The notes under the pieces: generated by a model
What the model saw: the letters and a program-made list of their open reading frames with translations, nothing else
What the model was told of the DNA's origin: nothing
Databases searched by the model: none
Part shown: positions 44,284 to 47,153 of the stretch, in pieces
Numbering within the stretch: the stretch's first letter is position 1
How the letters are laid out: every line of letters begins with the position of its first letter
Translations under genes and position numbers: made by a program
From: Weissella oryzae SG25
GTDB taxonomy: Bacteria; Bacillota; Bacilli; Lactobacillales; Lactobacillaceae
Length of the DNA: 64,000 bases
Assembly (NCBI RefSeq): GCF_000691805.2
Contig: NZ_DF820491.1
Location: 1 to 64,000 of the forward strand
Reading direction: 5' to 3'

Positions 44284-44763
44284 TTAAATTGTTACTACAT
44301 GGCGGTCAAAAGGATTATCCGAAATTCCTTGGGCTAGAATAATTTCAGCCCAGGCTTTAGCTGAATGTAATGAGTGATCTTTATAGTTACCACATTCTTT
44401 GATTGTTGTTGCAGGTACATCTTCCCAAGTTATTTCATCGCGAATACGCACTAATACGCGGGTAAATGCCGCAGCAAGTTCGGTCGTTGTATAAGCTTGC
44501 CAGGCAATGACATGAAAGCCAGTCCGACACCCAAACGGTGACATATCAATAATACCATCAAGTTCATCACGTACTAATGATGCAAATAGGTGTTCTAGGG
44601 TATGAATACCGGCAGTTTCAATTGCCGTTTCATTTGGCTGCGTTAAACGCAAATCGTAATTTGTAATTGACCCACCAGTTGGACCACTTTGTTCCTCAAT
44701 TAGCCGAACGTAAGGCGCCTTAACTTTAGTATGATCCAGGGTGAAACTTTCAACTTTAGCCAT
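44284..44763 (-). CDS. luxS: S-ribosylhomocysteine lyase LuxS
   Basis: 159 residues. The metal site is HTLEH (His54, Glu57, His58) with Cys124 in ECGNYKDHS, and Cys80 in PFGCRTGF matches the catalytic cysteine. LuxS splits S-ribosylhomocysteine into homocysteine and the autoinducer-2 precursor. Its ATG overlaps the stop of the gene before by one base (TAATG), coupling translation. It thus feeds homocysteine to the methionine synthase in the same operon. Confidence 0.97.
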
Positions 44764-45479
44764 TACTTTGCCTCCTTTAGATATGCAATTGATTTATTTA
44801 CTTCAACCTTAGTACCAGCATACTGCTTTGTAATCCACTTTTGAATTTGCGGATTATGGTATAGGCTAAGCAAGGTTTGGTAAGTCTTATTATGTTGATT
44901 CTTACTTGCTGTAGCGAGAATATTAATGTTTATCTTGGTTGAAGCATCAACTTTTTCATGAGCAAGCGCATCTTTTAATACATTTAAATGTCCTGCTTGC
45001 GCCGTTGAATTTGAAATCAAGACTGCACCAACACTCTTATCATTCTTAAGAACTGATACGCCGGTTGTATCATCAATAGCCTTAAATTGAAAATTATGTG
45101 GATTACTCTGAATGTCCTTAATCGTTGATAAATCATTAAAATTACTCTTTAAAGTAATTAATTTCTCAGCAGCTAATAAGCGTAAGCCACGCGCTTGGTT
45201 GGCATCATCTGATGATAGCGCAATCGTAGCCCCATCAGGAATCGCCTTGATACTGTGATATTGTGAGAAGAGCCCCATCGGCTCAATATAAGTTGTTCCC
45301 AATGCAGCCAATTTTTGTGGACTTGCCTGATTAAAGGCGGTGAAATATCCGTAAGACTGAAAGGCGTTCACATCAATATCACCATTTGCGGTCGACTTAT
45401 TCAATAAGGCACCATCACTAAAGATTTTTACTTTAATTTTGAGATGATCAGCCTTAGCTTGTGGATTGCTTCTTTTCAT
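44763..45479 (-). CDS. MetQ/NlpA-like protein lacking the signal peptide
   Basis: From ATG 45479 (after GGGGG) the protein has 238 residues. It aligns to MetQ/NlpA methionine-binding lipoproteins from the second segment on: [25 protein letters not shown], then the ligand-binding region [20 protein letters not shown] and [17 protein letters not shown]. The usual signal, lipobox Cys and first strand (about 40-55 residues) are absent, and the gene begins 5 bases after the metE stop. Either a deletion made a truncated, non-secreted protein, or it has become a cytoplasmic ligand-binding protein. Its position inside a methionine operon fits a methionine-related past role. Confidence 0.82.
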
Positions 45480-45484
45480 ATAGC

Positions 45485-46606
45485 TTACCCCCAAACTTCC
45501 TGAGCAACTGACTTAACAAATTTTAGCTTAGCCCATTGCTCAGCATCAGTTAATGTGTTGCCCTCTTCCGTAGAAGCAAATCCACATTGCGTAGAAAGTG
45601 CTAATTGCTCCAATGGTACATATTGACTGGCTAGTTCAATCCGTTGGATTATATTCTCGCGTGCTTCGAGCTGAGCTTGTTTTGAGGTTACTAAGCCCAA
45701 AACTAACAAAATATTTTTACGATCGTTATAAATTTCAGTCAACGGCTCAAAATCACCTGAGCGAGCGTCATCAAATTCCAAGAAGAAAGTATCATAATTC
45801 AGCTGACCAAGGTACTTCGCAATTGGTGCGTAGCCGCCCTCAAAAAGATAGGTTGACTTAAAATTACCACGGCAAATGTGGGTAGATACCCGTAAATCTG
45901 CTGGCAAATCTGCTAACACTTGATTCACTAAGTATACAATATCTTCACACTGCTTAACATACTTTGCATAATCGGCATCATGCTCATTCAACCGAGCAAT
46001 TAGGAATGCCCAAGTTGTGTCATCAAGTTGAATATAACGAGCACCTAAATCGTAAAAGTGCAAAAGCGTTTCATGATAAGCTTTTGCCAAATCATCTAAA
46101 AAGGCTTCCCAAGTAGGATAAAATTGTTCCCAACCATCTGAGCGACCATCACGGTTCGGAATTAATGACGGTGATGGAATCGTCACTTTAGCCTCAACAC
46201 CTTCAGGTAGGACCGACTGCAGATAACTAAAGTCTGCAAAGAATGGATGCTCAGGATTAAAAGCAACCTTATCAACTAAGCGAACATTTGTTGTCCGAGT
46301 TTTGGCCCCGTGGAATTTGTAAGATGCTTCTTGTTCATATGCTTCAATCCCGTTCAAGCCCCAGATAAAGTCTAAATGCCACCATGAACGGGCAAACTCG
46401 CCATCAGTTACTGCCTTTAAGCCAACGGCTGCTTCTTGGGTTACGAGCTTGGCAATTTCTTCGTGTTGCACTTCAATCAATTGTGCTTTCGTTATTTCGC
46501 CAGCAAAGTAAGCTTGTCGTGCTGCTTTGAGTGGCGCAGTCCGTAAAAGTGAGCCGACTTGGTCAAAGTGTGTGTGGGTTAAAGTTGTAGTTGTCTCTGT
46601 AGTCAT
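45485..46606 (-). CDS. Methionine synthase, cobalamin-independent (MetE C-terminal type, YxjG/YxjH-like)
   Basis: 373 residues equal to the C-terminal catalytic half of MetE. The fold signature is VGSLLRTAPLKAARQAYFAGEI, then DGEFARSWWHLDF, and the zinc-binding Cys/His residues are in THICRGNF and LSTQCGFAS. Such short proteins (Bacillus YxjG/YxjH) methylate homocysteine, perhaps with other methyl donors than long MetE. The ATG overlaps the stop of a 42-codon leader ORF by 4 bases (TTATGA). A T-box upstream controls the operon. Confidence 0.9.
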   Translation of the reverse strand: MTTETTTTLTHTHFDQVGSLLRTAPLKAARQAYFAGEITKAQLIEVQHEEIAKLVTQEAAVGLKAVTDGEFARSWWHLDFIWGLNGIEAYEQEASYKFHGAKTRTTNVRLVDKVAFNPEHPFFADFSYLQSVLPEGVEAKVTIPSPSLIPNRDGRSDGWEQFYPTWEAFLDDLAKAYHETLLHFYDLGARYIQLDDTTWAFLIARLNEHDADYAKYVKQCEDIVYLVNQVLADLPADLRVSTHICRGNFKSTYLFEGGYAPIAKYLGQLNYDTFFLEFDDARSGDFEPLTEIYNDRKNILLVLGLVTSKQAQLEARENIIQRIELASQYVPLEQLALSTQCGFASTEEGNTLTDAEQWAKLKFVKSVAQEVWG

Positions 46607-46731
46607 AACAATTTGCTCTCGATTCTGTGGTTACTTGTAATTTTGTTAACTAATCTTTGCTGTAAAGACCACATTCGACTTTGCCCCAAACCTTCGCCAA
46701 CTAACTGGCTAATATTCTTTATCACTTTCAT
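46603..46731 (-). CDS. 42-residue leader ORF overlapping metE
   Basis: A short frame begins with ATG at 46731, preceded by AGAAAGGAG at 10 bases, the best SD in this stretch. It reads MKVIKNISQLVGEGLGQS and is basic at its C-terminus. Its stop TGA overlaps the ATG of metE (TTATGA), while metE itself has only a weak SD. This is what translational coupling looks like. It lies after the T-box terminator, so it is transcribed only when the T-box reads through. No family recognised. Confidence 0.55.
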   Translation of the reverse strand: MKVIKNISQLVGEGLGQSRMWSLQQRLVNKITSNHRIESKLL

Positions 46732-46784
46732 CAACAGCCGACTCCTTTCTAATTTTTGAAAAGCTTGTATTTATCTGCTTACAC

Positions 46785-46824
46785 AAAAAAACGCCCCGTA
46801 GCTATAAATAGCTACGAGACGTTT
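46785..46824 (-). terminator. T-box attenuator terminator
   Basis: AACGCCCCGTAGCTA (46788-46805 region) pairs with TAGCTACGAGACGTT, then T7 on the minus strand. Pairs with the T-box sequence when the antiterminator is formed instead. Confidence 0.88.
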
Positions 46825-47056
46825 GCACGTGGTACCACTCGTTTTCAAGTATTAAATCAATACTCCTCTATTCGATACGGCCTAAGATTTAGGCGATATC
46901 TAGCGCAATAACGGGCGCAACCGAGCGGTGCTAACTTTTTGAGCTCACAACACTAACACTCCAAGACCATTTTCCAAACTTAATCTCCACTGATTTACAC
47001 CAACCATCAGCTCTCTGGGCGAGATACCATAAGTACTTCATCTCTTCAAAGCATTT
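46785..47056 (-). ncRNA. T-box leader (methionine) upstream of metE
   Basis: On the minus strand the leader contains AGAGAGCTGATGGTTGGTG (Stem I), GGAGTATTG, and the T-box bulge GAGTGGTACCACG (complement of 46828-46840). A candidate specifier codon ATG (complement of 46968-46970) in AAAATGGTC would read tRNA-Met. The terminator is at 46788-46824. Uncharged tRNA pairing with the UGG of the T-box would prevent it. Methionine specificity fits the metE-metQ-luxS operon downstream. Confidence 0.88.
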
Positions 47057-47153
47057 TCAATAGCTTTATATTAAGACTGAAATGATAATTTATAAAGTGT
47101 TTTATTATAATTTTCTAATTTAAATGTTAAGTGACCTCGACTTACCCGCTAAA

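Follow-up and report, generated by a model that had tools for sequence, protein, structure and literature searches.

A short open reading frame (ORF) lying between a methionine (Met) T-box and the methionine synthase gene yxjH in Weissella oryzae SG25 is almost certainly a translated and selected leader peptide, because relatives share its core, VGEGLGQSRM, through mainly synonymous changes. The last residue of the core is the amino acid of the T-box. We consider it an even bet that the leader works as a second sensor at this Met codon, in tandem with the T-box, by a mechanism that we infer: with the ribosome at the Met codon, the conserved residues would occupy the exit tunnel; charged tRNA-Met or a related metabolite would then influence how that codon is decoded, or how the chain is released directly afterwards; and translation or stability of the operon would change as a result. 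We favor such a second control step because divergence of the leader is mainly synonymous, its exact pattern occurs at one place, the operon order is the same, and a parallel design exists behind tyrosine (Tyr) T-boxes upstream of nhaC. Among the three roles that the original prediction offered for the ORF (coupling device, small protein or second level of control after the T-box), the last fits best.

The features of the locus are given in Table 1 by their positions in the window, the whole stretch of 64,000 nucleotides that was analysed. The upstream T-box and its terminator are present as originally described, and the T-box scores above the gathering score of its covariance model. We take its specifier to be AUG at 46970-46968 (minus strand), a register that agrees with T-boxes aligned from other yxjH-type genes of the genus, and AUG so placed fits the downstream pathway (methionine synthase). 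Between terminator and gene lies an ORF with its own Shine-Dalgarno sequence (SD) and a cognate codon. It had been described as 42 codons long, with the best SD after the T-box terminator, a TGA overlapping the metE ATG as TTATGA, and a single Met after the first, at codon 20, and every one of these details holds (full translation, minus strand 46731-46603: MKVIKNISQLVGEGLGQSRMWSLQQRLVNKITSNHRIESKLL, then a stop). A TTG stands one codon upstream and would, if used, make 43 codons. The median SD of 33 ORFs in the window is -7.4 kcal/mol against the anti-SD. Farther down the operon, the MetQ/NlpA-like gene is without the N-terminal part present in relatives (at locus L126 the PF03180 match places profile position 1 at residue 33) and thus probably without a signal peptide.

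Table 1. Features of the leader and operon, as positions in the window.
Feature	Position	Strand	Basis or remark
Met T-box leader	46812..47058	-	RF00230, 107.6 bits; gathering score 93
Intrinsic terminator of the T-box	46789..46824	-	16-pair stem, then T-run
SD of leader ORF, AGAAAGGAG	46742..46750	-	-8.5 kcal/mol against anti-SD
Leader ORF, 42 codons, MKVIKNISQLVGEGLGQSRMW...KLL, then stop	46603..46731	-	Translation; conserved core
Conserved core VGEGLGQSRM	46672..46701	-	Pattern match 46672-46698, V codon immediately before; common to 6 other species
Species-specific extension, TGG where relatives have TGA	46603..46671	-	Six relatives have TGA at that codon
Weak SD of yxjH, GAGAG	46616..46620	-	-3.0 kcal/mol
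yxjH-type B12-independent methionine synthase (metE-like)	45485..46606	-	NF004875, 622.6 bits; cut-off 576
MetQ/NlpA-like gene, N-terminally short	44763..45494	-	PF03180 match from profile position 17 at residue 9
luxS	44284..44763	-	S-ribosylhomocysteine lyase models, best 276 bits; cut-off 277

Conservation of the peptide upstream of metE in relatives, which the original prediction named as a check, was found in seven species with the frame kept. A VGEGLGQSRM leader precedes a yxjH-type operon in 7 of 28 genomes of the genus, that is, in half of the 14 in which our search found yxjH. Five close species have the leader MQYLCVTAHRCLFVGEGLGQSRM, whereas G003 has IQALCVTVHRCLVVGEGLGQSRM, each followed by a stop; the start codon is ATG in six of the seven species and ATT in G003, where a strong SD is kept (start at L061 1459-1461; SD -9.5 kcal/mol). 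Conservation is concentrated toward the C-terminal side and stops at the Met codon: the N-terminus of the window species diverges, and what follows the core Met is a stop in six species, whereas the window species continues with Trp and 21 more residues. The order leader-yxjH-metQ-luxS is the same in G011 and G006; in G003 a Cys/Met-metabolism PLP enzyme gene comes directly after the leader, and yxjH, a metQ-like gene and luxS lie behind it.

Of 397 family genomes, five contained the exact nine-residue pattern GEGLGQSRM, each of them belonging to the genus and each at this place, with no control matches; two further carriers (G005 and G008), outside that sample, were found by inspecting regions upstream of yxjH. 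An order-wide search matched 1 of 395 genomes, the window itself, in a sample that included only five genus genomes. Seven other yxjH loci of the genus lack the motif: in G020 yxjH comes after a luxS-like frame, and the remaining six have a T-box-like leader close before the gene. The exact pattern was absent from the viral contigs searched, neither the whole peptide nor the sister peptide matched plasmids, and a phage search returned two weak unrelated matches (E 5). A DNA search gave matches in 20 genomes, one of them the window itself; the others were short (21 to about 50 nt). Weak whole-peptide matches in four genus genomes (E 0.01-0.06) fell in a common 247-aa frame, a protein-phosphatase-like ORF at L003, the one locus inspected, and were set aside as chance. 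A profile match in G004 (E 0.009) was also rejected; it lies within a thymidine-kinase-like frame.

The comparison of synonymous with non-synonymous changes, also named originally as a check, came out mainly synonymous. Differences in the core among the three sequence types are synonymous only: the window genome (G000) differs from G003 at six codons and from G011 at five, none of them non-synonymous, the following TGG/TGA codon apart. Over the whole ORF, G003 and G011 differ by eight synonymous and four non-synonymous codons (the start codon and three others). Third codon positions account for 7 of 7 and 6 of 7 changes in the core plus following codon and for 8 of 14 in the whole ORF, and the other two frames have no synonymous changes. 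Equally few amino-acid changes arose in 33, 9 and 6 of 100,000 random-substitution trials for the three comparisons. The five close species show no difference in 72 nt of the ORF while fourfold sites of yxjH differ by up to 29%; this invariance alone does not single out the ORF, because the 5' flank, toward the T-box, hardly varies either (0-9 of about 120 positions changed, against 1-10 of about 79 in the 3' spacer).

The closest parallel to the Met leader is found at nhaC. When 12 T-box leaders of the window genome were screened for a leader ORF that reaches 8 codons and whose SD scores -6 or better, two passed: the Met/yxjH leader and a Tyr/nhaC leader. The latter (locus L134, G000:C5:119900-121650) has 18 codons (MGLSKIKIKTSFGGLSRY, then a stop), an SD of -11.6 kcal/mol and a stop 47 nt before a gene that matches the NhaC model TIGR00931 at 344.6 bits, under the cut-off of 370. 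Our nhaC sample comprised 112 loci (all 30 of the genus search, 22 of the family search and 60 hand-picked from the family list), of which 101 contain a T-box core by our pattern. The motif GGxxRY follows the core in 43 of these 101 leaders, spread over 10 of 22 genera, and in 19 of 20,200 shuffled gaps. Leaders outside the genus include MHTCGGNPRY, MNKPSCGGLIRY and MENCGGIIRYQLTFMN, each ending at a stop, and in 19 of the 24 cases there a canonical start lies in frame behind an SD that scores -5 or better. All four third bases are in use in the Gly codons; Tyr is always TAT (43/43), and all but one of the 43 Arg codons are CGA or CGT. Among 88 T-boxes of five other genomes, GGxxRY was confined to the three nhaC loci included. 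Arg plus the T-box amino acid thus closes the Met motif and the Tyr motif alike, a link that rests on few residues and may reflect convergence. Neither the core peptide of the Met leader nor a paper naming an nhaC/Tyr T-box leader peptide was found in the literature searched, which excluded most subscription papers and all preprints.

Folding with a modelled ribosome distinguished the two kinds of leader. For 40 of the 43 Tyr leaders (the near-copies G006, G023 and G027 were left out), placing Arg in the P site and Tyr in the A site brought the nhaC SD and start to a predicted accessibility of 0.62, up from 0.42. The mean gain was 0.195, compared with 0.037 for shuffled upstream sequence (largest of 18 replicate means, 0.071), and 31 of the 40 lay above the median of the shuffles made from them; the Wilcoxon test (p = 7e-6) overstates the significance, as related sequences are not independent. 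The Tyr codon lies 41-73 nt from the gene. In the same test, the Met leaders of seven species gave gains of -0.24 to 0.00, no better than shuffles, leaving an ErmC-type unmasking of the yxjH start unsupported. Control of start access by ribosome position, as in rtpA, is thus predicted for the Tyr leaders as a group and not for the Met leader, and the models support translational attenuation of the ErmC kind for the former alone.

The genus adds a further twist to the Tyr leaders. At 18 of its 30 nhaC loci (e.g., L195, L200 and L205), the strong SD serves an NTG-GGR-TAY start whose frame stops after 3-5 codons (MGY, MGYLM, MGYLN, MGYTN and others), and it is the -1 frame that encodes the conserved peptide, with GGxxRY at 17 loci and GGLNHY at one. 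Eight of the 18 have no ATG, GTG or TTG in the -1 frame between the upstream stop and the site; in the window species and G012, the start is fused in frame with the Tyr peptide. This arrangement suggests that a -1 shift at a hungry Tyr codon opens the long frame. We propose gating by Tyr starvation because tRNA-Gly in the P site, on stepping back, could pair again with GGG and the codon in the A site is Tyr: fed ribosomes would stop after 3-5 codons, and Tyr-starved ribosomes would shift to the frame of GGxxRY. A 2016 review calls it unclear how far 'hungry codon' frameshifting occurs in nature and what it is used for (PMC5009743).

Leaders of other specificities were also seen. Two valine (Val) T-boxes precede brnQ-like genes, one followed by ...NGGLIRVYIF... 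(L330, G196) and one by MKNVVSN and a stop (L342, G085), with specifiers read by eye. The T-boxes at L347, L331, L371 and L374, three of them read by eye as isoleucine (Ile; AUC), are followed by SD-bearing ORFs that include MNSDISGIKN..., MDDPSGIIEND..., MESDIY (then a stop) and MKDSDISDIRGIIKN.... These Val and Ile examples suggest, without proving it, that T-boxes of this family are commonly followed by leaders that encode the cognate amino acid. A Met T-box at L395 (G196) has a 32-codon leader with one internal Met, after Arg, and stands before a putative O-acetylhomoserine-sulfhydrylase-like gene. At L333 and L335, two consecutive T-box-like antiterminators precede an amino-acid ABC permease gene; apparent leader ORFs there were dropped, being positioned inside the second T-box.

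The leader of rtpA (anti-TRAP) in B. subtilis is short, with consecutive Trp codons, and reportedly figures in studies by Chen and Yanofsky (2003, 2004). As here, a T-box that acts on transcription, in that case a Trp T-box, is followed by a short translated leader ORF with a cognate codon before the first gene (PMC11255114). The original remark that short ORFs in this position lie outside the classical T-box scheme is fair, but a tandem of T-box and leader peptide is already known. Unlike rtpA, the leader described here has a single cognate codon, the last of a conserved motif, and the yxjH start is not predicted to be unmasked. In M. tuberculosis, metE and ppe2 have B12 riboswitches with translated upstream ORFs (uORFs), so that a riboswitch plus uORF likewise stands before metE; there, however, the riboswitch is of another kind, the uORF of metE is part of the aptamer region and reduces MetE expression, and limited conservation is reported (PMC11260477). 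The yxjH-luxS operon of Lactobacillus paracasei shares the Met T-box and the operon core and is induced by methionine lack; the term 'leader peptide' does not occur in that text (PMC6004538).

Could the ORF instead be there mainly to pass ribosomes on to yxjH, as a coupling device whose own sequence matters little? In the window species, where TGG in place of TGA extends the ORF into yxjH, the stop/start overlap and weak SD fit the original proposal, and translation of yxjH is probably coupled to the leader; such coupling, by termination-reinitiation across a stop/start overlap, has been demonstrated for uPPE2-PPE2 (accessible part of PMC11260477). The proposal does not extend to the six relatives, whose ORF stops immediately behind SRM; the next gene, which has a normal SD of its own (-7.4 or -6.6 kcal/mol), begins 77-79 nt farther on in five species and 46 nt farther on in G003, where it is the PLP gene. 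Coupling is plausible only as a feature of the window species because of this gap; what is conserved in the sequences is the peptide, not the overlap, and we regard coupling as the main role as distinctly unlikely. That the conserved stretch is an RNA element rather than a peptide we hold to be very unlikely. All three types have the same last 14 nt, CAAAGTCGAATGTG, and a 10-pair hairpin is predicted inside the ORF of two of them; yet the changes that do occur sit at third codon positions and are synonymous in one frame only, and the folding of the window and G003 leaders is not unusual against shuffles (z +0.68 and +0.33; G011, z -2.36), which leaves an RNA-only reading unsupported.

The peptide might also be a small protein that has an independent function and is regulated together with methionine genes. 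Coding conservation would be expected of it, but only 23 residues exist in the relatives, with no family match; both termini diverge in the window species, and the fixed place between T-box and first gene is kept even where that gene differs, so that we think this role improbable, marginally more so than coupling. A less remote, though still unlikely, alternative is a ligand-sensing arrest peptide, in which nascent VGEGLGQSRM would bind methionine, SAM or another sulfur metabolite and stall at the end of the core, with tRNA charging irrelevant. TnaC, with tryptophan, is a precedent, and it and other arrest peptides are, in the sources as far as available, likewise short, C-terminally conserved leaders before a regulated gene; we claim no sequence similarity. 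In all seven species the conserved C-terminal residues adjoin the candidate stall codon, and in six a stop codon follows immediately. The window species has nevertheless lost that stop and kept the core, and the final residue of the Tyr leaders follows the T-box amino acid, an exchange that codon sensing explains no less well.

Several observations also weigh against our preferred reading, the second sensor at the Met codon. A stall at codon 20 in the window species would hinder, not help, coupled translation of yxjH; the Met leader shows neither predicted unmasking nor, in the window and G003, unusual folding; G003 starts with ATT; and no Arg-Met leader was found at 28 yxjH loci of other genera (12 with a T-box core by pattern, one of these inside a coding region). 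In its favor, the nhaC leaders offer the same layout, with a GGxxR-Y end behind a Tyr T-box, and a ribosome held there is predicted to free the nhaC start.

We tentatively, and with less than even confidence, place the Met and Tyr leaders in one modular class, which would combine a G-rich core, Arg and the T-box-sensed amino acid with an exchangeable last codon, a translational second tRNA reading and, in the genus, a -1-gated Tyr version. Its endings so far are R-M (here), R-Y (before nhaC) and one R-V (before a brnQ-like gene). The Tyr leader makes the question of natural hungry-codon frameshifting testable; if true, its gate would be a natural regulatory use of such frameshifting. The T-box is usually regarded as a complete switch. 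If the peptide re-reads the same amino acid, a set of transporter and biosynthesis genes in lactic acid bacteria would contain a hidden translational step.
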